Source: a candidate division WOR-3 bacterium (GTDB lineage Bacteria; Hydrothermota; Hydrothermia; UBA1063). Taken from it: a stretch of 64,000 nucleotides of DNA. The DNA is taken from NCBI GenBank assembly GCA_039803545.1, contig JBDRYS010000001.1, positions 499,866 through 563,865 on the forward strand. The letters run 5' to 3'. Below, one piece after another: positions 1,778 to 33,892 of this stretch; the first letter of the stretch is position 1; the number at the start of each line of letters is the position of its first letter. A model generated the notes under the pieces. The model had not been told where the DNA came from, ran no database searches, and was given only the letters and a program-made list of their open reading frames with translations. The translations under genes and the position numbers were made by a program.

Positions 1778-2642
1778 AAGTCTATTTCTGAAAATAAACT
1801 GGGCGGATGTCGCCGTCATTACCCTCGGGACACTCATTACCTCCGTTGGGATCGTTCTATTCCTGGCACCTAACAAGATCGCAGCAGGTGGGGTGTCAGG
1901 TATAAGCATTATATTATTTCACCTTTTCCACTTTCCAATAGGACTCACAATGCTCATAATAAATGCTATTCTGTTTGTAATCGCCTTTGTACTCCTTGGA
2001 AGTGAATTCGGATTGAAAAGCATTTATGCCACAGTCATGCTAAGTGTATTCGTCGATTTACTGGAGTACCTTCTTCCAAAGTCCTTGTATATTAATGACC
2101 TTGTGATAGCAACACTCTTTGGTGATCTCTTAACGGGATTTGGGATTGCCCTGGTCGTTTCGAGGGGGGCTTCCACCGGTGGAACCGATATTGTGGCAAT
2201 GATCATTAAGAAATACACCAACATCGATATGGGAAAAGCTCTTATGGTAATAGATTTCACTATCACTCTCTTTGCAGGAATCTTCTTTGGTAAGATAATT
2301 GGGATGTATTCGCTCCTCGCCGTCATTATAAATACGAACACCATTGATTACGTTCTTGAAGGTATAACTACGTCCTTCCAGGCCTTCATAATATCAAAGG
2401 AGCACGAGGCCATTAAAGAAAGGATATTAAAGGAGATAGGACGAGGAGTAACTTTGATAAGAGCGATAGGTGGTTTTACCGGTGAAGAGCGACTTGCCCT
2501 ATGGGTTATTTTAAAATCTCCAAGGGAAATAGTGAAACTTAAGGAGATAGTTAAAGAAGAGGACCCCACGGCCTTTGTTACAATAACTCACGTCCGTGAG
2601 GTCCTCGGAAAGGGATTTAAAAGAATTTCAAGTTCATTCTAA
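1752..2642 (+). CDS. YitT family integral membrane protein
   Basis: A 296-residue protein of the YitT/DUF161 family. Five to six hydrophobic helices fill residues 20-200, including the glycine-rich segments APNKIAAGGVSGI and SRGASTGGTDIVAM that are family hallmarks. A soluble C-terminal domain of about 90 residues (TLIRAIGGFTGEERLALWVILK) matches DUF2179, a predicted ligand-binding fold. The transported substrate of this family is unknown. It is translationally coupled to the helicase gene, starting inside its last codons, and its 3' end overlaps the convergent membrane gene by 4 bases, so no terminator separates them. Confidence 0.88.
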   Translation: MQNLREWNKSLFLKINWADVAVITLGTLITSVGIVLFLAPNKIAAGGVSGISIILFHLFHFPIGLTMLIINAILFVIAFVLLGSEFGLKSIYATVMLSVFVDLLEYLLPKSLYINDLVIATLFGDLLTGFGIALVVSRGASTGGTDIVAMIIKKYTNIDMGKALMVIDFTITLFAGIFFGKIIGMYSLLAVIINTNTIDYVLEGITTSFQAFIISKEHEAIKERILKEIGRGVTLIRAIGGFTGEERLALWVILKSPREIVKLKEIVKEEDPTAFVTITHVREVLGKGFKRISSSF

Positions 2643-3271
2643 AAAGGCCTGATTCCGAGCCATTTGTTCAATAAGAAATCAAGTCTCCCTACAAGTAAGG
2701 AGAACCTCGCCATTACCGTATAACCGAAGGAGGCACCGAATCCAAGCATCAACAAGAATAGCCCCACCTTGGAAATCTGTTTTACGCCCGGCCTATCATG
2801 GGGAATTGAGAAGTAGAAATAGACCAGTACAGAAACTACTCCTACGAACAGAATCAAAGCATTGATCCAACTTATTAAATTAGGGTAAGGAGGTCTCAAA
2901 ATTGAACTTTTGCTCTGCTCTATTATGTAAGTTTGAATAGTTAAAGGAATACTTAAACCCGAACCAATACCGAGTAGAACAGCCATGGGCCACCTTATCA
3001 TATAGGAAATCTTTGGGAAAGCCGAAGTGAGATAAAGAAGTCCGAGAACAAATGGTATTATGAAAATGAATTGCTTCTCTTGAAATAGGGGAACCCACAC
3101 ATTAGGATAAAAGGCATTTTTATAAACCACCACAAGTCCGTACCCTGTAGCAAGCCCAACGAATAAGTGCTCGGCCATCCTGAAGAGTGGATTATCCTTA
3201 TACAAAAAAGTGAAAATTGCTAAAGTGAGCAAAGCCTGAATCCATATCCAAAGGTTTGTCGAAATGTGCAT
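2639..3271 (-). CDS. Six-helix membrane protein, last gene of the DUF6754-like cluster
   Basis: A 210-residue, strongly hydrophobic protein with about six membrane helices and short loops; I recognise no catalytic motif. It starts 1 base after the stop of the preceding gene, and the four genes between 5844 and 2639 run with gaps of 1-12 bases, so they are almost certainly co-transcribed and probably form one membrane assembly. The helix near the N-terminus carries LFRMAEHLFVGLATGYGL, the most conserved-looking segment. Function unknown; the call as a real gene rests on length, tight packing and a typical membrane-protein composition. Confidence 0.75.
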   Translation of the reverse strand: MHISTNLWIWIQALLTLAIFTFLYKDNPLFRMAEHLFVGLATGYGLVVVYKNAFYPNVWVPLFQEKQFIFIIPFVLGLLYLTSAFPKISYMIRWPMAVLLGIGSGLSIPLTIQTYIIEQSKSSILRPPYPNLISWINALILFVGVVSVLVYFYFSIPHDRPGVKQISKVGLFLLMLGFGASFGYTVMARFSLLVGRLDFLLNKWLGIRPF

Positions 3272-3272
3272 G

Positions 3273-4130
3273 TTACTTCCTCCTCCTTGATAAAAAGTAA
3301 CCTATGTTGCCAATTATTATGAACAAGATAATGAGTAATTGCCCTATTGAATTAGCATCCATCATCCTGATCGCTGAAGTAGAAAATTTACCTATTCCTT
3401 TCTCTTTCAAAATGCGATTAACGGCATCTTCGTATTCGGCTGCTGCTTTCATCCCAGCCAGCATGCCTATAAACTGGCCCGCCTGTATATATGGATAAAA
3501 ATCACCTGCGCTAACACCAGTTACTGCTGCTGCAACTTTAACCCCGTATTTTGTATAAGCATAAACTGCCCATGTAGCAGGAATTGCTGATCCACTAAAA
3601 CTTATAACTAAGGCAATATCTCTATAATTTTTTACAGGCTTTAGAGCGTAAATATCTGTGGTCTTAGTTCCAAAGTAATCTGTCTTATAAACGCTTTTAA
3701 TGTCTTCTCCAAGCCCTAAAATCACTACAGCACCACCAGCTTGGTAGCCTAAGAAGACATAGTCAGTATCTCGACGAGCCCCAAGAACTCTCTCGGCTTC
3801 GGTAAAGGCATCCAGTGCTAAGCCGGCTCCTTGAACTCCTAAGGTCATGCCGATAGGAATTACCCCTCTTAGGATACAGTGTTTTACAACGGCCTTATAC
3901 ATTGGGTGTACTTCAGGAGCAACCGAGGGATCATAATCAGCGGACAAGATAACATAAGAGCCTTTGGGAAGAGTATCTATATATTCAAATACCCTCTTCA
4001 CCTGGGGTGACATTTTTTGAGGGAAATGCGGTGGGAAGATTAAAGGAATTATGAGTCCAATTAAAATCACAAGATAAATGTATTTTCTGTCAATCTTGCT
4101 AAGTTTAATAAAGAAATCCCTTACTGACAT
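3273..4130 (-). CDS. Membrane-anchored protein with a large soluble alpha/beta domain, DUF6754-like cluster
   Basis: A 285-residue protein with one helix near the N-terminus (residues 18-36), a soluble region of about 210 residues, and a C-terminal helix followed by a basic SRRRK tail. That places the soluble domain between two anchors, on one side of the membrane. The soluble part has alternating beta-alpha character with glycine-rich turns (GVQGAGLALDAF, GYQAGGAVVILGLGED), suggesting ligand binding, but I do not recognise the family. It sits 1 base from its neighbour on each side. It resembles the third soluble domain type seen in small uncharacterised clusters of candidate phyla; the function is unknown. 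Confidence 0.75.
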   Translation of the reverse strand: MSVRDFFIKLSKIDRKYIYLVILIGLIIPLIFPPHFPQKMSPQVKRVFEYIDTLPKGSYVILSADYDPSVAPEVHPMYKAVVKHCILRGVIPIGMTLGVQGAGLALDAFTEAERVLGARRDTDYVFLGYQAGGAVVILGLGEDIKSVYKTDYFGTKTTDIYALKPVKNYRDIALVISFSGSAIPATWAVYAYTKYGVKVAAAVTGVSAGDFYPYIQAGQFIGMLAGMKAAAEYEDAVNRILKEKGIGKFSTSAIRMMDANSIGQLLIILFIIIGNIGYFLSRRRK

Positions 4131-4131
4131 A

Positions 4132-4755
4132 TCAACCTCCTACCCAGTTTCTTTCAATTCCAAGGATTATTTTGATGGAAGTTGCTACCACTCCAAGTCC
4201 AACGCCAATCATAATACCCCTCTTAGAAGCCAAATTGGGGACAGCCATAATCCATTCAACTATTTCATTCATCTTTGGAACATAGTTACCTATGGTAGTT
4301 GTTCCGAAGATTATTATAAAAGCAGTAATCATAAGGACCGTCGCTTCAACTCCCCTAATCCTGAATGCCCTATATGCCGCAGAGGACATGTAGAAGGCGA
4401 GCAAGGAAAAGGTCGTTGCCTGCAAAGGCACCATCATGTTATTATACATTTTCTGGAAGAGGGAATCGGAACCTGTACCGCCAATAAAGCCGATTAACAC
4501 CATTGCTGCAAAAGATAGAATGGCTACCAAACTGTAGGGGGCGTAATTCTTGTCTTTGAGTCTTCTCGAATGGAACCTTAAAAAGCTAACTATAGCCATT
4601 ATGTAAGCCATTGAAGCTATTGCTCGGTCCCACATAAGTGAGTTGTCATATATAGTCTGAGATATCGGGTGCGGTACGAAATACTGTAAGGTCATAATAA
4701 TACCTATTATGAAAACAAGGGCCAAAGGTATTTTCTTTTCTAATAAAGGTCTCAT
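4132..4755 (-). CDS. Five- to six-helix membrane protein, DUF6754-like cluster
   Basis: A 207-residue integral membrane protein with about five hydrophobic segments. It starts with a basic residue-flanked helix (MRPLLEKKIPLALVFIIG) and holds short polar loops with DRAIASMAYIMA and GGTGSDSLFQKMYNNMM. No known catalytic motif is visible. A ribosome site (AGGAGG) lies just upstream of its ATG, 12 bases beyond the preceding stop. It is the second gene of the cluster and probably pairs with the 210-residue membrane protein to form the integral part of a complex with two membrane-anchored soluble partners. Confidence 0.75.
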   Translation of the reverse strand: MRPLLEKKIPLALVFIIGIIMTLQYFVPHPISQTIYDNSLMWDRAIASMAYIMAIVSFLRFHSRRLKDKNYAPYSLVAILSFAAMVLIGFIGGTGSDSLFQKMYNNMMVPLQATTFSLLAFYMSSAAYRAFRIRGVEATVLMITAFIIIFGTTTIGNYVPKMNEIVEWIMAVPNLASKRGIMIGVGLGVVATSIKIILGIERNWVGG

Positions 4756-4767
4756 CTCATAACCTCC

Positions 4768-5844
4768 TTAGAACAAACCTAAGGTGATATTCACTTTAAA
4801 AAGGCTTAATATACTTAGCAAAACCATGACGACAACCAGAAGTAACTTAGCGAGGTCCTGGGCTTTAATAGTACCTGTGAGAAGAGGTTCCCTTGATAAA
4901 TATGCGCTTGCTGCGTAAAGCTCCTCACCGATTAGTGTATAGTCACAGGTAACGACAAAGAATGGCAACTGAGCAACCGAATCCGTACCTGCAACCTGAA
5001 TAGCCCCCGTTGAGGCGCCAGTTTCGGATAGAATTAGGGATTCCGCATAGTAATATCCCATAAAGAAGTTAGTAGCACTTTGCTCCCTTACCATCCTTGC
5101 AGCAACATGGGCTGCGTAACCAAACTGGCTATCAGTGGCAAAATAAACATCATCAGGATTAAATAAGTCTGGCCTGCCAATCGTTGTGTATGCTTCCTTC
5201 ACTATTTCTCTCGCTATGGTGTAAACGACGGGGTCGTAACATGGTACGACTATTCTTGTCTCAAATTGACCTGCCCTCTTCGTCACATGCGAGAGAATAT
5301 TGAGGGCTGCAATGGTAGCAATATCTGAAATGCCCGTCAATCCGTTTACATAAATTATAGGCCTACCCATTTCCGTGGCACGTCCAATTGCCTCATTCAC
5401 AGCCTCTAATCCCGCTATTGGTCGTAGATAAAGCGGTTTGTTTGCCCTTGCCTGTGCAATGTAATAAATCATAATAATTGTAAATAGCATCATTGCTATA
5501 AATAGCGGGAGTTTGTCCTTGTCAAACCACTTTGCGGTAGGCCTGGTATATTCACTCCACTCACTTTCAAAGATGAGATTCCCATTGGAATAAGCAAGGA
5601 TCTTATACCGGTAATCCTTTTTGTGGCTGAGGCTATTATCTGTATACGCCTTTAGAAATGGTAAAATATCTAAAGTATCAATCTTTCCATCGCTACATTT
5701 TCTCACAAGATTTAGAGTAGTAATTTGAGGTCGAATTGTATCAGGTATATCCAGTACTATAGTGAGTTTTTTACCTGTTCCATCAGGGCTAAAGACCCTT
5801 GGTGGTGACAGGAATAGCATAAAAAGGATAGTTTTTAAAAGCAT
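4768..5844 (-). CDS. DUF6754-like exported/membrane-anchored protein, first gene of the cluster
   Basis: A 358-residue protein. The third possible codon (ATG at 5844) is chosen because the upstream GTG lies inside the AAGGAGG ribosome site. Order of parts: signal-like helix (residues 1-18), an Ig/FN3-like extracytoplasmic region, a membrane helix near residue 118 (LFIAMMLFTIIMIYY), a soluble domain of about 180 residues (RPIAGLEAVNEAIGRATEMG, then GLTGISDIATIAALNI and TGASTGAIQVAGTDSVAQLPFF), and a final membrane helix. The soluble domain resembles the family called DUF6754; this is from memory and unverified. It leads the four-gene operon and has its own likely promoter at 5872-5899. Confidence 0.72.
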   Translation of the reverse strand: MLLKTILFMLFLSPPRVFSPDGTGKKLTIVLDIPDTIRPQITTLNLVRKCSDGKIDTLDILPFLKAYTDNSLSHKKDYRYKILAYSNGNLIFESEWSEYTRPTAKWFDKDKLPLFIAMMLFTIIMIYYIAQARANKPLYLRPIAGLEAVNEAIGRATEMGRPIIYVNGLTGISDIATIAALNILSHVTKRAGQFETRIVVPCYDPVVYTIAREIVKEAYTTIGRPDLFNPDDVYFATDSQFGYAAHVAARMVREQSATNFFMGYYYAESLILSETGASTGAIQVAGTDSVAQLPFFVVTCDYTLIGEELYAASAYLSREPLLTGTIKAQDLAKLLLVVVMVLLSILSLFKVNITLGLF

Positions 5845-5871
5845 TGCCACCTCCTTCGCATATTAGGATTA

Positions 5872-5899
5872 ATTTTAAACTAAAAACCTTCTACTGCAA
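5872..5899 (-). promoter_or_regulatory. Probable sigma-70-type promoter of the four-gene membrane cluster
   Basis: Read on the minus strand: TTGCAG (5899-5894), 16-base spacer, TAAAAT (5877-5872). Transcription would start about 20 bases before the ATG at 5844, leaving room for the AAGGAGG site. Both boxes match four of six consensus bases. Confidence 0.4.
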
Positions 5900-5907
5900 A
5901 ATACAAA

Positions 5908-6258
5908 TTATGCAAACTTGCAGGGATTAGAAGTTTCTTGTGATTTTAGTACTTCTTCAAAATTAAGTCTACTTGAAAGATCATCTATTGTAGTTCTGAT
6001 GCCCATTCGAGGCTCCTTTTCTTGTTGTAAGCCCTGTCAAGCTCGCTTTGCAACATGATTATCGCTTGTGTTAATTTTACTATCTTTATGTTATCCCTCA
6101 AACTCTCAATTCTCCTTTTTACTTCTTTACATAAGCTTTCAACTCTTAACTCCACCCGTTTAACGGCGTTTCTATCTCATATCCACTTTACCTTTCTCTC
6201 CGTTTATTTTGTGTTTCTCGCTACCTTCATTTGCTATGACTACATTGCGTTCCTCCTT
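5908..6258 (-). pseudogene. Remnant of a small charged, helical protein with two apparent frameshifts
   Basis: Three consecutive minus-strand reading frames make one coherent charged, helical product. The first (6258 to about 6180) reads KEERNVVIANEGSEKHK and stops at TAG. The second (6155-5985, 56 codons from a GTG) reads as a coiled-coil-like stretch with LCKEVKRRIESLRDNIK. The third (6006-5908, 32 codons) reads MGIRTTIDDLSSRLNFEEVL. The third frame has its own AAAAGGAG six bases before an ATG, so it could still be translated or be a tiny gene of its own. The plus-strand hydrophobic frame here is the expected mirror image of a charged antisense product. I do not recognise the ancestor. Confidence 0.4.
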
Positions 6259-6363
6259 GTTTGAAGAATAAAAAATGCAGTATGGTCGCCGTTTTATTAC
6301 TTTGTTATTTTTGAAGAAACAATCCAATTTCGATTAGATTAATTTTGAGGAACGCTGTTTTTT

Positions 6364-6392
6364 TTGACTGTTTTAATAACCGAAGGTATAAT
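6364..6392 (+). promoter_or_regulatory. Near-consensus promoter of the nuoEF/chimera/gdh operon
   Basis: TTGACT (6364-6369), 17-base spacer, TATAAT (6387-6392): five and six of six consensus bases at optimal spacing. Transcription would start near 6399, giving a leader of about 90 bases before the first ATG at 6488. The leader shows no strong hairpin that I can see. The 6265-6360 stretch upstream holds no gene. Confidence 0.78.
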
Positions 6393-6487
6393 TTTAACAA
6401 TGCAATTTCTGATATACTTAGTTCAAAAATGTTCAGCAAAAATGCAAACTAATACAACCACAGAGGTAAAAACACAGGAGAGGTATT

Positions 6488-8751: not shown

Positions 8752-8765
<14 letters not shown>
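6945..8765 (+). CDS. nuoF: NuoF/HydB-like NADH-binding flavoprotein with N-terminal 2Fe-2S and C-terminal ferredoxin domains
   Basis: The 606-residue diaphorase subunit that binds NADH, FMN and Fe-S clusters. Order of parts: a thioredoxin-like domain (residues 1-85) with C12, C43 and C47 visible; the FMN site GRGGAGFPTG near 163; the NADH loop CGEETALIASIEG near 280; an SLBB domain; the NuoF [4Fe-4S] site (ESCGKCTFC near 450, last ligand in SLCGLG near 495); and a two-cluster ferredoxin domain (CTGCTACARYC near 546, CIKCGTCYEVC near 575). This extended layout is typical of HydB and other bifurcating BfuB-type subunits, not of complex I NuoF, which lacks the added ends. It overlaps both neighbours, by 8 and 14 bases, so the three subunits are made together. 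Confidence 0.93.
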
Positions 8766-13052
<4,287 letters not shown>

Positions 13053-20293: not shown

Positions 20294-22186
20294 TTACTTT
20301 ACTATCACTACCTTCTGAGTAGCCACCTTACCATCCGCATTGACAACTAAGAAGTAGGCACCAGGTCTCACATTGGATACATCAACCTTCACGCTCTTTC
20401 CAAACCCTTTGCCTTCATAAAGCGTTATCACCTTTCTACCTTCGACATTGTAAAGTTCAGCCCTTACCATGTTCGCATTTGTCGGTATACTAAGCTCTAA
20501 GCTTGATTTTGCAATCGAGTTTTTCAATGTCACTAAGCCAGTCTCTCTAACACTGGAAGGTACAATATCTGCATCAGTTCTCGGATAGAGGGTCCCTCTG
20601 TACCTTAAAATACCTACGAGCATATCAATCTGCTGATGAACTTCAGTGGGCCTCCAGGTATATCCAATCGCCTGATCCCCCTCGACCGTTAAGACAAAGG
20701 TATCTGGCTCAACATAAGTATATACTCTCCAATCGCCACCAGTACCAACATCATACACAAACACCGGTGGTTGAACAGCCACCAATACGTGTTCCCATTG
20801 TTCAGAAACGGCACCCGCTTCGTTTCTAAGATCCGGTAAAGGAACCACTACTGGATTTACAGTATGCCCACTACTTACAACCCTATAATACCTTATGTTG
20901 ATAAGTTCTGTTATTGCATTGGCACCGTATTCAGCAACATCACCTGCAATTATCACCGAATCCCCTTCTTGCATCGCATTTACAGGGATGAAATTGGGGC
21001 TATCAAATCCGTGAATACCCGTCCAGGGTCCTTCACCCTGCTGCACAAAGAAGATTGGATAAAGGAATTTGTCCTTCCAGCCCGTGATTATACCTGTGAT
21101 CGTCACAGTTCTTCCCATCCAGTTACTCCTGAAACCATTGGCAGAATCATTCGGCATAGTATCAGACTCAATTAAAGTTATCGGGGTAAAGCCACCGTAG
21201 AAATAGGCTGTATCGGTAACTTGTTGTCCGTAGGTGTCTGTTAGGTTCTGTCCAAAGAATCTATATTTAAGTGCATCAACCATGTTGTCAGTTGTCAAGG
21301 TCACATAATGGCTATCACTGGTTGATACCTCCGCTGAAATCACATTGAGAGGGGTTGAAGTTGCACTATCCTGCAAAATATACTTTGTTGGATCTTGAGC
21401 AGTAGAAGGTCTCATTGGGGTCTTGAACTTGATCAATACCTTGTTTCTATCGATGGAGTAAATGTCAGCGACACCAGGGAGTAAGAATTCATAATCGTCA
21501 ATAGACCTTGGCCTCAGCATGTAATAGGTTATACCACCAAGTGTTCTGGTTTCTACAATCCCTTGAATGTTCATCGCATCGCCAACGGTAGGAGTGTATG
21601 AGTAATTGTTCCTTACAATAACATAACCAGTGCCATCAGAGATCTCAAATTCGTTATTGGTTCCAAGCCCAGTTCTCGTTACGTAGGCATTTTCAATTCT
21701 CACAAGAACACCTTCGTAGGCCTCAGCGGAGTCGACAGGGAAAGCAGAAGTGGATGTTGTATCAAGATGGGCACAGGTAATGAGTGCTGGTGCAGGTGGT
21801 GTATGTCCTGTATCAACAATCTGAAAATCGCTTATACTGTTAACTTGAATTTCCGTATTACCATAATACTCTAATACACCGCCTGTGAAAACCACACTGT
21901 CACCTACGTTTATTGGGGGCAAAGTTCCAGCAGAGGCTGGGAAGTAAACCATTATACCACGCCAAGGGCCTCCTGGATTCATTTCGACGAAGATGTTACG
22001 AGTGCCTGTAACCCCCGTCTTAGCAACAACAATACCCCTTAGGGTAACGGTCTGATATACCCAAAGGGAAGCCTGGGTGTTTGGATCCCTCTCGTACTGG
22101 ATCGCATATATGGTGGTATCCACCGCCTGGGCGCTCAGCATTGTGAAGCCCAGGAGGAGTACTGTTACTATACTTTTGACCCTCAT
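20294..22186 (-). CDS. Secreted protein with two OB-like modules and a C-terminal sorting domain
   Basis: A 630-residue exported protein with a signal peptide ending near SAQA. It contains two related modules of about 100 residues (roughly 40-140 and 360-465). Each runs TVT(L/I)(R/T)GI..., GPW(R/T)GI..., GDSV...AG/TG, EYG/YYGN, and resembles the OB-fold-like domains found beside secreted nucleases. Between them is a putative beta-sandwich region. The last 80 residues (VRAELYNVEGRKVITLYEG ... GAYFLVVNADGKVATQKVVIVK, shown in parts) are a classic T9SS/Por-type sorting domain, so the protein is probably exported and attached at the surface. The start at 22186 is set by AGGAGG; the GTG six bases earlier lies in that site. 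No catalytic motif seen. Confidence 0.82.
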   Translation of the reverse strand: MRVKSIVTVLLLGFTMLSAQAVDTTIYAIQYERDPNTQASLWVYQTVTLRGIVVAKTGVTGTRNIFVEMNPGGPWRGIMVYFPASAGTLPPINVGDSVVFTGGVLEYYGNTEIQVNSISDFQIVDTGHTPPAPALITCAHLDTTSTSAFPVDSAEAYEGVLVRIENAYVTRTGLGTNNEFEISDGTGYVIVRNNYSYTPTVGDAMNIQGIVETRTLGGITYYMLRPRSIDDYEFLLPGVADIYSIDRNKVLIKFKTPMRPSTAQDPTKYILQDSATSTPLNVISAEVSTSDSHYVTLTTDNMVDALKYRFFGQNLTDTYGQQVTDTAYFYGGFTPITLIESDTMPNDSANGFRSNWMGRTVTITGIITGWKDKFLYPIFFVQQGEGPWTGIHGFDSPNFIPVNAMQEGDSVIIAGDVAEYGANAITELINIRYYRVVSSGHTVNPVVVPLPDLRNEAGAVSEQWEHVLVAVQPPVFVYDVGTGGDWRVYTYVEPDTFVLTVEGDQAIGYTWRPTEVHQQIDMLVGILRYRGTLYPRTDADIVPSSVRETGLVTLKNSIAKSSLELSIPTNANMVRAELYNVEGRKVITLYEGKGFGKSVKVDVSNVRPGAYFLVVNADGKVATQKVVIVK

Positions 22187-22347
22187 AAACACCTCCTGTT
22201 TTTATGTTTTGAATCTTTGACTTGTAAAAATTGTAAAGTTAAAATTTCAAACATGTGTTAAGAATATGTCAGGCCCCGTTTACAAATCCTCTGCTGCTTA
22301 AAATGATCGTCTGTTTGGCGCAATTTAAATTCAATAGCCATATCCAG

Positions 22348-26462: not shown

Positions 26463-27427
26463 CAGAAATTCACCCCCATTTGCGCCTTGTGAACAATCCC
26501 TGCAAACCCCATAGAGGTGGCCGCATAGTCAATGTGAATATCCTTTTTAAATCCAATGCTCTTTGTGAGTCCAATTCCGGCTGTGAATCCAGAATATTCT
26601 CCAGGCAAATTGGCATTCAATCTGTAGCCAAACCTCAAAGCCAAAACCTCACCGATAATGTATTCAACGCCTGCCCTGAAGATTTCAACATTGTCAGTAC
26701 TCTTTTCAAGCTGTGCCGAAATATAAAAGGTACTAAAGGGGCTTCCATAAAATCCAAGACGATATATCACGGGTAATGAAAAGGTAGAAGGCGTCTCCGC
26801 TGGATTTGGACTTTTAACAATAGGGTCAGGCCCTATATTGGAGATGGAAATACCGAGGCTAAGGTCTCGATAACCTATGAGGTAAAAAGTACCAACGTCC
26901 AGTGCAACGGTATACTGGGTATAGTCGTCAAGAACTTCATTTAAGTATTTGACGGTAATCCCAAAGGCAAATCTATCGATCAACTTCCTTGAAAGGGAAA
27001 TTCCTACATAGGAACTCGATACTCTGTAATAGGTACCGAGGCCAAAGGGATGATACTCATCAGTCCTCTGTATGTACCCAGAGTGAAGATTCCCGAGCAT
27101 AATACCCGCCCTTGTGAATTTCCCAAATTCATAAACTGCTCCACCGAAAGTATAGTAAGCATCTGCAATCCACCGTTGAGAGAATAAAGCAGTACTCTTT
27201 CCCGATGGAATAAAGGAAATCGCTGATGGATTCCAGTACATGCAGGTAGCATCACTGGCAATGGCAACCCCTGTTTCTCCCAGGGCTCCTTGCTTTGCCC
27301 CCACTGGAATCTTAAGAAATGCCATCGTGGTTGTACCTATCTTTTGCCCTCCTAAGAATTCGAAAATAGTGAGGGCTTTTAGTGATCCACTTGCTAATAG
27401 AAGTAGGACAAGAATTCTTTTTACCAT
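26462..27427 (-). CDS. PorV/PorQ-family outer-membrane barrel protein
   Basis: A 321-residue outer-membrane protein with a signal peptide (residues 1-19). The stretch AFLKIPVGAKQGALGETGVA, with SDATCMYWNPS after it, is the hallmark of the PorV/PorQ family. In Bacteroidota the PorV protein shuttles type IX secretion substrates with C-terminal sorting domains to the surface attachment step. The rest is barrel-like beta sequence ending in phenylalanine. Placement in the same operon as two sorting-domain proteins supports a dedicated export/attachment role. No other type IX components (PorK, L, M, N, SprA) are in this window. Confidence 0.85.
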   Translation of the reverse strand: MVKRILVLLLLASGSLKALTIFEFLGGQKIGTTTMAFLKIPVGAKQGALGETGVAIASDATCMYWNPSAISFIPSGKSTALFSQRWIADAYYTFGGAVYEFGKFTRAGIMLGNLHSGYIQRTDEYHPFGLGTYYRVSSSYVGISLSRKLIDRFAFGITVKYLNEVLDDYTQYTVALDVGTFYLIGYRDLSLGISISNIGPDPIVKSPNPAETPSTFSLPVIYRLGFYGSPFSTFYISAQLEKSTDNVEIFRAGVEYIIGEVLALRFGYRLNANLPGEYSGFTAGIGLTKSIGFKKDIHIDYAATSMGFAGIVHKAQMGVNF

Positions 27428-30087
27428 CTTATCAACACCCCCACAAAAATCTCCCTTGGTTCGCCATATCTTGCTGGATTCAACATGCTTTCAGGAGTGG
27501 TTCTTGGAGGAAGGGGGTCGCCAGGTTCATACGCCCTGCCAGTCACAGGATTTATTATTCTATGATCTCGCCAGTTGAAAACGTTCCGGATCTCTGACTT
27601 AAATCGGAAATCTACTTTTCCAGTCTTGAAAAGACCTTTTTCAAATTTTATATCTGCCCTCTTCCACATAGGCCCGAGTTTTGAGTTTATCTCACCTGTA
27701 TTTCCAAGGGTATCCTGAGGCGTGTACCTTACGCCGGATTGAAGAGACAAACCAGCAGAAATGAGCAGATCATCTATTTTTAACTTAGAGATCCTTAAAT
27801 ATTCTCCCTTTCTCAATGAATAAGCGATATCCCCATAAAATTTAACGGGCCTATCCCACTTCAAATACCATTCTTTTAGCGTTTCTACGCCACCACTCCA
27901 GTACCAATCTTCAGAGGAAGAGGACCTACCCTTACTTTGAGAAAGGGTAAGAGATAGAGAGCCATAGATGTGATAAGGGGTATAATAACTCAAGTCTGCT
28001 TCGAGCCCCACCGAGCGTGAATAGTCGGAGTTAAAGTACATCCAGAAGGATGGATTGGGAGGTATACCAGGGACTTTTCTCGCAGTAGGATAATTGAACA
28101 CATCCTTGTAGTAAGCGGTAACCTTTAGTTTACTTTTCTGATGTAAAAGTTGTTCAACACCAATTTCATAGGCAACGGTAACCGTAGGTCTCAAGTTGGG
28201 ATTTCCCACAAGTTCGTAAGAGGATGAAGCCCTCACCCCCAGTTTAGAATAGACATACTTCAGATCGGGTAGCTGAGAAAAATGGCCATAAGAGGCAAAA
28301 AACTTTGTATTCTCAGTAATTGGATATGCGAAACCAAGACGAGGGCTTACATGGAACTTTACAATCCTTCCCCGGATTGAAGCGTTATCGTTCAAATATT
28401 TTGTATATTCGGATTTAATCGCTGGAGGTAAATCAGGTTCTTGTAGGATTCTTTTGACTGCATCGTCAACATACTTACCAGGTACCCAGAAGTCTCCACG
28501 AATTCCAAGGTTTGCTATCATCCCTGCAAAGGTTATTTCCGTCTGGGCGTAAGCACCACCATCAAAGGAGTAAATCTTATAAAGGTCGTAGTTGAGGCCA
28601 AGCCCATTTTGTGTGCCATACCAGGGATAATGGATGTCAAGCCACTGCAATTCATTTCTATTAGCTATAAAGCCGGTTTTGATCTTCCAGATCTTAGAGA
28701 AGATCCGAGTAAAATCGAATTTCGCTGTCCAGGTTTCTACATAATGGTCATGCCAGTAAGGTGCATCCCCGTAATCCCAGAACAAATCCTGAGGTATAGT
28801 ATCAACGGTTTCCACGTATTGTGACCAATGTTTACCATTCACATCTGCTCTTAGATTCGTAAAAAACCTCGAAATTTTAAGGTCGTAAAAGCTTTTAAGG
28901 GAAAGGGCATGATTTATAGAAATGGCCTGCTGAATAGCATCTCTTGTAAAGGTTAGATAATTCTGAAGGTTATAGATATAACGATAAGGAAATCCATTGG
29001 CAAAGGGATAGTCGGAAGAAGATAGGTAATAACCCTGATTGATTTCTAAGGATTTGTTTACCATAAAATAAACGCGGAAATTGTTCGTGACCTTCCAGGA
29101 AATTCTTGAAAGAAGTGAATAGTCGTTTTCTTCCCGTGGTGAAAGCTTCCAGGTTTTATAAATCGATGTGTACAGGCTATCCGCATGGGGCAAATGGGTA
29201 TCTTCAAGGTCAGAGTGAAAACTCACATAGTAAGTGATATTACCGGGAATATTAACTTTCAAGAAATTTTTGAGGGCAAAAGAGAGAGGCTCTGGACCGC
29301 TCAAACTAACATTAAGCACATCTTTATTTTGGTGGTTCTTAATCCTCAATAGGTCATTATACTGTCCAAAGTTGTCCCTTACATAATCAACGGTTCCAGT
29401 GAACCGTGATGAGCCTTCCCTTAAGCTCAGATTCACTACCCCTGACATCGCCTGACCGTATTCGGCGTTAAACCCACCAGTCAAGGCTTCAAGCTCTTCA
29501 ATAGCAGAACTTGGAATATAAAGGCCAAAAGCACTGCCAGAGAGAACATCTTTGATAGGAAGTCCGTCAATTAAGACCATAACTTCGTTCGAGCGTCCAC
29601 CCCTTACATGAATATCGGTACCCTGTCCTTGAAAACCCGCCTGTTTTTCAAGGATTCCCTTTACATCTTCTGAGGGTATAATATCTAACCTCTCCTTCCT
29701 CACTACAGTCTTTGATGACGAGACTTCCTTTTCAATTGCAGGCTTCTCACCGACAGCGACGATCTCCTCAACTTTAAAAACTTCTTCCTGCAAATAGAAA
29801 TTGACCTCCCTCGTTTCATTACCGCGAATAGTAACTTTTATCGTTTGCGGCTTATATCCCACCATTGAAGCGACAAGAAGATATTCTCCAGGGGGAACCT
29901 TTGGTATAATGTAGTTTCCCTCGAGATCACAGGATGTACCAATCTTAGTCCCTTGAATTAGAACATTGGCAAGGGGGAGGCCCTTTCCTGTTACCGCATC
30001 ATAAACCCTCCCCACAATTTTCCCTTGCGCGTAAAGGAAATTCAGGAAAATCGTGGTTATAATAAGGTAACGTAAAGTTTTGTACAT
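27421..30087 (-). CDS. TonB-dependent outer-membrane receptor with carboxypeptidase-regulatory-like N-terminal domain
   Basis: An 888-residue receptor for TonB-driven uptake. Order of parts: signal peptide, a CarboxypepD_reg-like domain (GKIVGRVYDAVTGKGLPLAN, residues 21-105), a plug domain (VHVRG-type segment DIHVRGGRSNEVMVLIDGLP, near 180), and a large barrel ending in the aromatic W typical of outer-membrane proteins. The start at 30087 (AAAGGAGGG six bases before) is preferred; the longer frame would run into the promoter. It leads the surface operon that includes PorV-like and sorting-domain proteins. The substrate is not evident; a SusC-like role with the lipoproteins is possible. Confidence 0.9.
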   Translation of the reverse strand: MYKTLRYLIITTIFLNFLYAQGKIVGRVYDAVTGKGLPLANVLIQGTKIGTSCDLEGNYIIPKVPPGEYLLVASMVGYKPQTIKVTIRGNETREVNFYLQEEVFKVEEIVAVGEKPAIEKEVSSSKTVVRKERLDIIPSEDVKGILEKQAGFQGQGTDIHVRGGRSNEVMVLIDGLPIKDVLSGSAFGLYIPSSAIEELEALTGGFNAEYGQAMSGVVNLSLREGSSRFTGTVDYVRDNFGQYNDLLRIKNHQNKDVLNVSLSGPEPLSFALKNFLKVNIPGNITYYVSFHSDLEDTHLPHADSLYTSIYKTWKLSPREENDYSLLSRISWKVTNNFRVYFMVNKSLEINQGYYLSSSDYPFANGFPYRYIYNLQNYLTFTRDAIQQAISINHALSLKSFYDLKISRFFTNLRADVNGKHWSQYVETVDTIPQDLFWDYGDAPYWHDHYVETWTAKFDFTRIFSKIWKIKTGFIANRNELQWLDIHYPWYGTQNGLGLNYDLYKIYSFDGGAYAQTEITFAGMIANLGIRGDFWVPGKYVDDAVKRILQEPDLPPAIKSEYTKYLNDNASIRGRIVKFHVSPRLGFAYPITENTKFFASYGHFSQLPDLKYVYSKLGVRASSSYELVGNPNLRPTVTVAYEIGVEQLLHQKSKLKVTAYYKDVFNYPTARKVPGIPPNPSFWMYFNSDYSRSVGLEADLSYYTPYHIYGSLSLTLSQSKGRSSSSEDWYWSGGVETLKEWYLKWDRPVKFYGDIAYSLRKGEYLRISKLKIDDLLISAGLSLQSGVRYTPQDTLGNTGEINSKLGPMWKRADIKFEKGLFKTGKVDFRFKSEIRNVFNWRDHRIINPVTGRAYEPGDPLPPRTTPESMLNPARYGEPREIFVGVLIRW

Positions 30088-30109
30088 CAGCCCTCCTTTT
30101 AAGCATTTA

Positions 30110-30138
30110 ATATTAATACAATGACCGTATGCGGTCAA
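30110..30138 (-). promoter_or_regulatory. Promoter of the surface operon
   Basis: On the minus strand: TTGACC (30138-30133), 17-base spacer, TAATAT (30115-30110). Transcription would start near 30103, about 16 bases before the ATG at 30087, just containing the ribosome site. A perfect palindrome overlaps the -35 box and spacer. Confidence 0.68.
30122..30137. promoter_or_regulatory. Candidate operator palindrome TGACCG-TATG-CGGTCA
   Basis: A perfect inverted repeat with 6-base arms and a 4-base centre, covering five bases of the -35 box and most of the upstream spacer of the surface-operon promoter. A repressor bound here would block polymerase directly. The regulator is not identifiable from this window. 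Confidence 0.5.
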
Positions 30139-30661: not shown

Positions 30662-33600
30662 ATGGACAAAAAATCTTTACAAAATTCAAATCACGATTCA
30701 CTCATTAAATTAGCTGATAGTCTTGTTTCTGAAACAAGAAATTTACTCCGTGAAGCTAAAACTGAAGAAGATTTAAGAATAGGCTTTGAAAAACTTTTGG
30801 AACCGATTAGGTCAAAGTTAAATCTAAAATCAACCCCTAAATATGAAAAGTCGGTTTATAGCGGCCGTTCCGATGCGGTACATGGGCAGGTAATAATTGA
30901 ATACGAGCCTCCAGGATCATTTTCATCAAAGAAGAATGTAGAGCATGCCTACGAGCAGTTGGTAAATTACTTATCAGACGAAGCAAAAGAAACAAAATTA
31001 ACTCAATTAGTGGGAGTGGGCTTCGATGGTGAACAGATTTTCTTTGTTCAATATCAAGATAACGATTGGAAAACAATAGATAGAACCAAATTTATTAGAC
31101 GAGGGCCCTATGACTTTAATCCCGAAAGTGCCCGAACATTTTTGATACATTTGAGGGCTCTATCGCGGCTTCCCCTTACTGCTGAGAACCTTGCACAAAG
31201 ATTTGGTCCCCAAAGTGAACTGGCAACTAAAATGGTTTCTGCTCTTGCCAACGCTTTAGAATACTGGGGAAATCAAACACATATTAGAACATTTTTTAAC
31301 GAATGGAAAAGAATATTTGGTATCGTTTATGGCGAACAATTTACCAGCGGCCAACAAGGGAAAGAATACGAAACACTCTCGAAACTTTACAAAGTCGGCA
31401 AAGATACCGATTTTCAAGAACTTTTATTTTCTGTTCATACTTACTTTGCCTTTCTAATGAAACTTATCGCCGCAGAAATTTTAACCTTAAGAGAAACATC
31501 TTTTAGCTCTTCCCTCGCTTACGAACTCGTCCATATTTCTGATGACGAACTCAAGAGAAAGCTTGAAGATATAGAGAACGGTGGAATTTATGCCCAAAAA
31601 GGGATTACCAATTTTTTGGAAGGCGACTTTTTCCGCTGGTATCTTGACGCTTTTGATTCGCCAGAATTAAGAGATGCAATAAGAGAAACTGCCAGAACCC
31701 TTTCTGAATTTGAACCGGCGACCAGCACATTAGAGCCCATCTCAACCCGAGATCTTCTCAAAAAACTTTACCAGTATTTAGTTCCACAAGAAGTCCGCCA
31801 TCGCCTCGGTGAGTACTATACTCCCGATTGGTTAGCGGAATTGTTACTAAACGAGGTAGGTTATGACGGAAATAACTTCAAAAGATTTTTAGATCCAGCT
31901 TGCGGTTCAGGGACATTCTTAGTTTTAGCAATACAAAGAGCCATAAAGTGGGGAAGAGAAAATGGTCGACCAGATTTAGAAATAGCAAAAAGCATAAAAG
32001 CCAATATCTGGGGCTTCGATCTGAATCCTCTGGCTGTTATTGCTGCACGTACAAATTACCTGTTTGCTTTGGGAGATTTAGTGAATGAAGTATTAGATAA
32101 AGGAGGAACGATAGAGATTCCAATTTATCTTTGTGATTCTGTTTTAACACCAACAACGATAACCAGAGAAATTTACGGAGAATCTTTACTTGTCTCGACC
32201 TCTGTTGGAAAATTCAGGATACCAGCGGAATGGGTAAAAGATAGTTTTACATTAAACCGTGCTGCTCCGCTTGTTGAAGAAATGGTAAAGAATCAATACT
32301 CGGTTGATGAAGCAATGGAAAGATTCGAAAAAGAAGGATTAGTTTTACCATACAATAAACAAGTTGTAAGGGATTTTTATAATCAAATTTTAGAACTCGA
32401 AAAACAAAATAAAAACGGCATCTGGGCAAGATTTCTGAAAAACGCTTTTGCGCCAATGATCGCTGGCAAATTTGATTTTGTTGTCGGCAATCCGCCGTGG
32501 ATTATGTGGCAATATTTATCGAAAGAATATAGAGAAGCTACACAAAATCTATGGGAGAATTATGGATTGACTAAAATTGGAGAAACACGAAATGTTCTCA
32601 TTAGGGGCAGAAGAGATTTTTCAATGCTTTTTGTTTACACTTCTGCTGATTATTACTTAAAAGATGGCGCAAAATTAGGATTTCTTATAACTCAAGAAGT
32701 TTTTAAATCAAAAGGTGCTGGTGAGGGATTTAGAAGATTCCAACTTGGCGAAGGTAAATATCTAAAGGTATTAAAGGCTCACGATTTGGTTTCTATCCAA
32801 CCATTCGAGGGACCAGCTAATAAAACCGCTGCAATTATTCTTAAAAAAGGAGAGAAAACAGAATACCCTGTACCTTATATTCTTTGGACCAAAAAGAAAG
32901 GTGTTGGCAAAATTGCTACTGACAAATTATTAGATGAAGTATTGCCGCTTTTACAAAAGAAAAGACTCATTGCGCAACCGATTGGTTCATTTGTTGGTCC
33001 TTGGCAAACACAATTATCAGAATTAGAAGAATTACTAAAAATCCAAGGTAAAAATTATTATCAAGCTAATATAGGTGTCGTTGTTTCCCCTTATGGAGTA
33101 TTTTGGTTGAATGTAAAACAGGTTCTATCGAATGGCGATTTACTGATAGAAAATTTTAACGAAGAGGGAAAAGTCAAAATTCCAAAAGTTGAAGCAATAG
33201 TTGAGCAAGATTTGGTTTTTCCTGCAATAAGAAGTTCTGATATTCATAGATGGTCAGCGACTCCAGAAATTTTTGTTTTAATTACTCATCCAGCATCACA
33301 AATTCCATACAGTGAGACAACAATGAAAAATAAGTGGCCGAAAACTTACAGCTATCTGCTAAATTTTAAGGATATCTTAATGCAGATGGCTCTCTATAAG
33401 CATTTCCATGAACCTGTGGGTGGCCCATTTTATGGTGAGCGTAATATCGGGAAGCATATATTCTCTCCTTATAAAGTTGTATGGAGAAGACAAGCCAACG
33501 ATATAAATGCGGCCGTGGTCGTTCAACATAAAACCCCATTTGGATACAAAACAGTAGTTGTACTTGATCCTTCAGCGTTTTTTGCCACTGACTCCGAATC

Positions 33601-33892
33601 CGAAGCCCATTATCTCTGTGCCATTATCAACTCAAAACCGGTTCGCGATTTTATCAAATCCTTTTCTTCTGCTGGTCGGGGTTTTGGCACACCTTCGGTG
33701 ATGGAGCATGTTGGCATTCCAAAATTTGACCCCCAAAATCCGCTTCACCAAAAACTCGCCGAGATCTCCAAAAAATGCCACGAGCTTAAAGCTGAAGGCA
33801 AAGAAAAAGAAATTGAGGAATTAGAAAAAGAAAACGACAACTTAGTAAGGCAACTATTTAATATCCAGTTGCCTGAAAAGAAACAAAAATAG
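30662..33892 (+). CDS. Type IIG restriction-modification enzyme (fused nuclease, N6-adenine methylase and target recognition)
   Basis: A 1076-residue single-chain restriction-modification protein of the Eco57I-like kind. The N-terminal region (1-160) carries a PD-(D/E)xK-like layout with GRSDAVHG near 68 followed by VIIEYEPP; the usual lysine of ExK is E here. The methylase has motif I DPACGSGTF near 410 and motif IV NPPW near 612, the adenine-N6 type; a helical linker comes before it. The last 350 residues form the target-recognition part. It would methylate its own DNA and cut unmodified DNA. No separate methylase or specificity gene is present. The composition is slightly more AT-rich than neighbours, in line with a mobile defence gene. 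Confidence 0.88.
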   Translation: MDKKSLQNSNHDSLIKLADSLVSETRNLLREAKTEEDLRIGFEKLLEPIRSKLNLKSTPKYEKSVYSGRSDAVHGQVIIEYEPPGSFSSKKNVEHAYEQLVNYLSDEAKETKLTQLVGVGFDGEQIFFVQYQDNDWKTIDRTKFIRRGPYDFNPESARTFLIHLRALSRLPLTAENLAQRFGPQSELATKMVSALANALEYWGNQTHIRTFFNEWKRIFGIVYGEQFTSGQQGKEYETLSKLYKVGKDTDFQELLFSVHTYFAFLMKLIAAEILTLRETSFSSSLAYELVHISDDELKRKLEDIENGGIYAQKGITNFLEGDFFRWYLDAFDSPELRDAIRETARTLSEFEPATSTLEPISTRDLLKKLYQYLVPQEVRHRLGEYYTPDWLAELLLNEVGYDGNNFKRFLDPACGSGTFLVLAIQRAIKWGRENGRPDLEIAKSIKANIWGFDLNPLAVIAARTNYLFALGDLVNEVLDKGGTIEIPIYLCDSVLTPTTITREIYGESLLVSTSVGKFRIPAEWVKDSFTLNRAAPLVEEMVKNQYSVDEAMERFEKEGLVLPYNKQVVRDFYNQILELEKQNKNGIWARFLKNAFAPMIAGKFDFVVGNPPWIMWQYLSKEYREATQNLWENYGLTKIGETRNVLIRGRRDFSMLFVYTSADYYLKDGAKLGFLITQEVFKSKGAGEGFRRFQLGEGKYLKVLKAHDLVSIQPFEGPANKTAAIILKKGEKTEYPVPYILWTKKKGVGKIATDKLLDEVLPLLQKKRLIAQPIGSFVGPWQTQLSELEELLKIQGKNYYQANIGVVVSPYGVFWLNVKQVLSNGDLLIENFNEEGKVKIPKVEAIVEQDLVFPAIRSSDIHRWSATPEIFVLITHPASQIPYSETTMKNKWPKTYSYLLNFKDILMQMALYKHFHEPVGGPFYGERNIGKHIFSPYKVVWRRQANDINAAVVVQHKTPFGYKTVVVLDPSAFFATDSESEAHYLCAIINSKPVRDFIKSFSSAGRGFGTPSVMEHVGIPKFDPQNPLHQKLAEISKKCHELKAEGKEKEIEELEKENDNLVRQLFNIQLPEKKQK

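Follow-up and report, generated by a model that had tools for sequence, protein, structure and literature searches.

A DUF6754 membrane protein cluster of candidate division WOR-3 and its evolutionary linkage to a GlmL-like ATPase in several bacterial phyla

We have analysed a 64,000-nucleotide stretch of a candidate division WOR-3 genome (GenBank contig JBDRYS010000001.1, positions 499,866 to 563,865, referred to here as the window) which carries close to its start a cluster of four tightly-packed genes, A–B–C–D, encoding membrane proteins. A preliminary description made from the sequence alone had dealt with these four genes, and we find that they are only part of a larger system to which three soluble proteins also belong, a GlmL-like protein and two which we have named M2 and S120. 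The evolutionary linkage between the seven parts is well supported, and our preferred reading, to which we give a probability of about 0.5, is that A–D form an inner-membrane complex which is the membrane half of a seven-part module (S120–GlmL-like–M2–A–B–C–D), with ATP-serviced transport or transduction as its likeliest activity. The genes of the cluster and the domains recognised in their products are as follows:

4768..5844, minus strand: gene A, encoding a signal peptide, an extracytoplasmic fibronectin type III (Fn3) domain, a helix, the DUF6754 domain and a further helix
5551..5799, minus strand: Fn3 domain of A (residues 18–100 counted from the GTG at 5850; PDB profile hits and Foldseek)
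4885..5439, minus strand: alpha/beta core of the DUF6754 domain of A (residues 138–322; AlphaFold model)
4132..4755, minus strand: gene B, encoding six transmembrane helices, predicted N-in/C-in from family-averaged hydropathy and charge
3273..4130, minus strand: gene C, encoding a helix, an alpha/beta domain predicted to lie outside the cytoplasm and a further helix (AlphaFold model and charge profile)
3402..4007, minus strand: alpha/beta domain of C (residues 42–243; AlphaFold model)
2639..3271, minus strand: gene D, encoding 6–7 transmembrane helices and the C-terminal motif FGASFGYTVMARxSLLxGR

The intergenic gaps between A–B, B–C and C–D are 12, 1 and 1 bases, in agreement with the 1–12 bases reported earlier, and each start is preceded by a strong Shine-Dalgarno sequence (aaggagg, taggagg and gaggagg among them). 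The listed open reading frame (ORF) of A runs from 4768 to 5850 and begins with a GTG, but the in-frame ATG at 5844 is the likely start because it has an AGGAGG at 5-base spacing. At the other end of the cluster, the 3' end of D shares four bases with the end of a convergent YitT-family gene. Hydropathy and AlphaFold models bear out the description of two multi-helix proteins (B and D) and two soluble domains each flanked by one helix on either side (A and C), to which we add the extracytoplasmic Fn3 domain found before the first helix of A. The models of A (mean predicted local distance difference test score, pLDDT, of 92.9; signal helix, Fn3, helix, alpha/beta domain, helix) and of C (pLDDT of 95.3; helix, alpha/beta domain, helix) were combined with family-averaged hydropathy and charge under the positive-inside rule, and this predicts that the Fn3 domain of A and the alpha/beta domain of C are outside and the DUF6754 domain is cytosolic.

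Only A has a family match amongst the four proteins. It is a clear member of DUF6754 (PF20539; 370.2 bits against a gathering cut-off of 27 bits, E 5.6e-111, covering positions 2–253 of a 257-position profile), in line with the label DUF6754-like given earlier to the cluster, though this is a family of unknown function and the model is silent on B, C, D and the soluble partners. In family searches with the window proteins, B, C and D matched no family at its cut-off, and profiles of B, C, D and M2 retrieved nothing usable from the PDB or Pfam. Kinship with a known transporter family had been named beforehand as a result that would count against the four genes being something undescribed, and no A–D protein matched a transporter or channel family above a curated cut-off, with relatives of B and D giving scattered weak matches. 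The same was true of ATP-binding cassette (ABC) and energy-coupling factor (ECF) families, for which the window A–D proteins gave nothing above cut-off and members of the B family gave weak matches at chance level. The suggestion that B and D are channel-like has their helix count in its favour and nothing further.

Structure searches added little, with Foldseek matches to the model of A dominated by Fn3 domains and those for C against the PDB limited to weak Rossmann-like matches (including 2pmb, 5zbl and 6y01; best E 3e-3, TM-scores of about 0.5 or below). The domain of C is a six-strand alpha/beta layer, for which kinship with SLOG and other Rossmann-like nucleotide-binding domains was considered, but as these matches are weak, mixed among unrelated Rossmann folds and never have an E below 0.001, we do not claim membership. 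It had also been stated that the two soluble domains are not alike, and a profile comparison of A and C (hhalign) was indeed not significant; nonetheless, the predicted elements follow the same order in both, a helix and then six strand-helix units placed between two membrane helices, and because of this a distant fold kinship is possible.

The cluster is conserved well beyond the window; its absence as a set from other genomes had also been named beforehand as a refuting result, and the opposite was found. It is found in A–B–C–D order in every member of the genus and in nearly the whole class, usually in two copies, and the loci we read include 104 strict ABCD runs, in which the median gaps lie between –4 and 9 bases. 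DUF6754 is present in 140 of the 147 genomes of the host phylum (1–7 copies each) and in none of 14 control genomes, and a scan of named genomes recovered at least 585 stretches from at least a dozen other phyla, though some of the names of metagenome-assembled genomes may be wrong. Latescibacterota, Poribacteria, Edwardsbacteria, Zixibacteria, Eisenbacteria, Cloacimonadota, Armatimonadota, Planctomycetota, Bdellovibrionales, CSSED10-310, Mcinerneyibacteriota and Fermentibacter are among the matches listed, together with others. The window A protein is at 61% to its counterpart in another family of the same order and at 44% to the second copy in its own genome, and the duplication is therefore old. 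That second cluster (locus L021, G000:C3:139000-151000) is flanked by genes for S-adenosylmethionine (SAM) synthetase and S-adenosylhomocysteine hydrolase on one side and for signal peptidase II and urocanase on the other.

As judged from their sequences, the four proteins share one history, as the distance matrices of A, B, C and D agree with one another across 122 complete clusters (Mantel r of 0.79–0.86 compared with a permutation maximum of 0.21). The immediate flanks do differ between genomes, as would be expected of four unrelated genes brought together by chance or by a common need for expression, but the order, packing, joint history and co-loss of the genes across many phyla contradict this explanation and leave it scarcely credible. 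Conservation is also uneven within A, where the alpha/beta core of the cytosolic domain averages 64% pairwise identity in about 140 sequences from many phyla, compared with 28–38% for the rest of the protein (Fn3 and helices; the Fn3 alone has a mean of 27.6%), and where the outer part is all but missing in some clusters and reaches about 900 residues in others. The most conserved domain of the complex is thus cytosolic and the most variable part is outside. We note that one ORF found with the C profile (locus L149, 4075–6009) encodes a protein of 644 amino acids consisting mostly of HEAT repeats.

Clustering of the neighbouring genes placed GlmL-like (about 600 residues, PF13941), M2 (375 residues) and S120 (about 110 residues) directly upstream of A in several phyla. 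In many Planctomycetota genomes the loci read directly have the operon order S120–GlmL-like–M2–A–B–C–D, so that ABCD is the 3' half of one operon in this phylum, in some WOR-3 lineages and elsewhere, and one WOR-3 locus keeps the same order while carrying two ABCD sets. There is one GlmL-like/M2/S120 set of this type per genome compared with up to seven ABCD sets (G089 is an example for GlmL-like/M2 and DUF6754 copies), and in the genome of the window the partners are single and unlinked (S120 at C1:393648, GlmL-like at C1:428935 and M2 at C1:265808, with the cluster at C1:502–506 kb).

The GlmL-like protein covers the whole PF13941 model (E 8e-126; 438 bits for the copy in the genome of the window against a cut-off of 27) and the ATP-binding (ASKHA phosphate) motif D-C/V-G-S-T is retained in 43 of 44 of these proteins. 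However, a Planctomycetota operon copy falls below every NCBIfam GlmL cut-off (NF040745, 236 of 475 bits; NF040744, 212 of 600; TIGR01319, 175 of 204), and for this reason we do not call it GlmL. It also differs from the GlmL/MutL family represented by these models in being encoded beside M2 and a membrane complex rather than beside glutamate or ornithine mutase. GlmL-like and M2 are tied to each other by a paralogue of about 950 residues which fuses parts resembling both and is separate from the ABCD-linked pair (e.g. locus L177, 3760–6612, and similar frames); this fusion has a weak match to an NqrA-type barrel-sandwich domain (E 8e-4, below cut-off).

An activase or chaperone role has been proposed for GlmL beside B12-dependent mutases, and the kinship of the first partner (with an NCBIfam GlmL score of 236 bits as well as the PF13941 match) raises the possibility that A–D are a membrane-bound enzyme or redox complex. 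Catalysis or cofactor binding would then fall to the domain that A has in the cytosol and to the one that C has outside, and GlmL-like and M2 would serve as activase or chaperone. The DUF6754 domain of A shows enzyme-like conservation in which certain E, D, Q, R and K residues are invariant, and a glycine-cleavage P-protein gene lies upstream of S120 in several WOR-3 lineages with a lipoate ligase gene downstream of D in some. We nonetheless regard an enzyme as possible but rather unlikely, as the GlmL-like protein scores under all of the GlmL cut-offs, no B12 enzyme was noticed adjoining its gene, structure searches gave no enzyme fold for A or C, and the neighbouring genes for glycine cleavage and lipoate are confined to certain lineages, with none of them next to the Planctomycetota operons we read.

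Linkage between the parts was tested by profile searches of whole genomes. In WOR-3, GlmL-like and M2 are each found in 139 of the 147 genomes, and two sister genomes (G127 and G128, 94–95% complete) lack A, C, GlmL-like, M2 and S120, i.e. all five parts tested, which other genera in their family have. Amongst 244 Planctomycetota genomes, DUF6754 is present in 69 and M2 in 63, with 62 having both, seven DUF6754 only, one M2 only and 174 neither; GlmL-like is found in 63/63 of the M2 genomes (M2 by GlmL-like, 63/0/7/174 for both, M2 only, GlmL-like only and neither). In Bdellovibrionota, DUF6754 is over the cut-off in 4 of 241 genomes and M2 is found in the same four. This recurrence in three phyla is a stronger argument for linkage than the Fisher tests we obtained for Planctomycetota. 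The seven parts are shown to be one evolutionary unit.

The mechanism we propose for this unit would have B and D forming the membrane core, with GlmL-like and M2 docking on the cytosolic DUF6754 domain of A, where they would spend ATP on driving, gating or resetting the complex. Outside, a ligand would be chosen and handled by the two outer domains, namely the Fn3 domain of A (or its larger equivalent) and the alpha/beta domain of C. As a single soluble set is shared by as many as seven ABCD sets in a genome, each of the latter is probably a head specific for its own ligand, placed on a common engine. In ECF transporters, S-components share one energising module, and the likeness is that one cytosolic ATPase set per genome would serve several paralogous membrane sets; this is an analogy of working only, as here there is no ABC ATPase and no match to EcfT or an S-component, and the ATPase is of the ASKHA type. 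The pattern of conservation and the shared soluble set agree most closely with ATP-serviced transport or transduction, with a membrane enzyme that depends on an activase in second place and sensing in third.

Sensing would make the module a signalling or envelope-status complex, in which a ligand or contact is detected by the outer Fn3 and alpha/beta domains and passed on by the membrane proteins, and the ATPase sets the cytosolic state. We think this distinctly improbable; it would suit the variability of A in its outer part (from 80 residues up to about 900) and the DUF4388 protein and two soluble proteins which follow the cluster in one WOR-3 lineage, but no kinase, cyclase or DNA-binding output domain was found in the seven proteins, and the inner domain is conserved far beyond the needs of a relay. 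It is very unlikely that the complex is an assembly platform of the secretion or pilus kind, in which the GlmL-like protein would stand in for PilM or GspL. PilM and GspL are cytosolic ASKHA partners of inner-membrane complexes, and there is a likeness in the combination of an ASKHA-fold cytosolic protein with membrane proteins having large outer domains and, in the case of ExbB–ExbD motors, in the ExbB/ExbD genes found upstream in some Planctomycetota. However, A–D have no sequence match to any component of these systems, GlmL-like matches GlmL and hydantoinase models and not PilM, and the loci read had no recognisable secretin, pilin or traffic ATPase next to the operon, no genome-wide search having been made.

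A number of observations weigh against ATP-serviced transport or transduction by a seven-part module. Nothing in the results points to a substrate or a pore, and the linkage is one of gene order, co-occurrence and co-loss. The Fisher values (1e-45 and below) ignore shared ancestry and, as related genomes are not independent, suggest more certainty than is warranted, and the Planctomycetota include the seven genomes with DUF6754 but no M2 as well as the one with the reverse. Flanking genes beyond the seven vary and give no consistent pathway, the partners in the genome of the window are 70–240 kb from the ABCD cluster, M2 has no confident domain match, and S120 has no family match.

The earlier view that these genes encode a membrane complex for which no system has been described still stands, as no known system has this set of parts. 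For only two of the seven proteins is the main domain matched by a family model, the first being of unknown function and the second a distant GlmL relative. A literature search found no paper naming DUF6754 or PF13941, with most subscription journals outside its coverage, and a broader search on GlmL found no paper in which it is linked with a membrane complex; unknown gene families of uncultivated taxa have been catalogued (PMC10849945). Tentatively, the module may represent a new class of ATP-driven envelope machine, in which one GlmL-type (ASKHA) ATPase and two soluble partners service several ABCD complexes with differing outer domains, near-universal in WOR-3 and present in Planctomycetota and at least ten further phyla. 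A system carried by essentially all genomes of one phylum and by many others, in which one domain stays this similar between phyla, must do something basic, and the poorly-understood GlmL/MutL ATPase family would gain a role in which its neighbour is a membrane complex and not a B12 mutase. The operon is carried by several Planctomycetota genomes of 5–8 Mb that consist of a single contig, and as this size is usual for cultured strains, culture-based tests of the question are probably feasible.

Amongst the genomic neighbours, ExbB/ExbD, DUF4388, MazG, LspA and SAM-cycle genes were rejected as parts of the system as they are lineage-specific, and one neighbour cluster (cluster 0) consisted of spurious antisense ORFs. 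The P-protein gene overlaps the S120 start directly upstream in several WOR-3 families (loci L181, L185, L186 and L188), and lipoate ligase is right after D in L181 and just downstream of the cluster in L027, L057, L080, L092 and others. In the lineage with the DUF4388 protein (seven loci, L053, L054, L056, L058, L074, L079 and L086), this and the two soluble proteins always follow D, with small membrane proteins further behind in most. TPR, ExbB and two ExbD-like genes are upstream of the seven-gene operon in one Planctomycetota locus (L190), with similar gene sizes in three others (L191–L193), and ExbB-like genes are also found near ABCD in WOR-3 loci L080 and L092.

Within the window, A is separated from a divergent NuoE-like gene by about 640 bases (5851–6487) having no convincing gene, in which minus-strand fragments (5985–6327) may be a decayed gene. 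A 974-amino acid fusion (8752–11676) of a NuoG-type 2Fe-2S/4Fe-4S part and an NfnB/GltD-like flavoprotein part (Pyr_redox_2, Fer4_20) is placed directly after NuoE- and NuoF-like genes and before glutamate dehydrogenase, and may be an electron-bifurcating complex. A diderm envelope is indicated by a protein that carries a C-terminal sorting domain for type IX secretion (20294–22192) and by a TonB-dependent receptor (27421–30138), and 30662–33892 encodes a 1076-amino acid Eco57I/MmeI-like single-chain restriction-modification protein.

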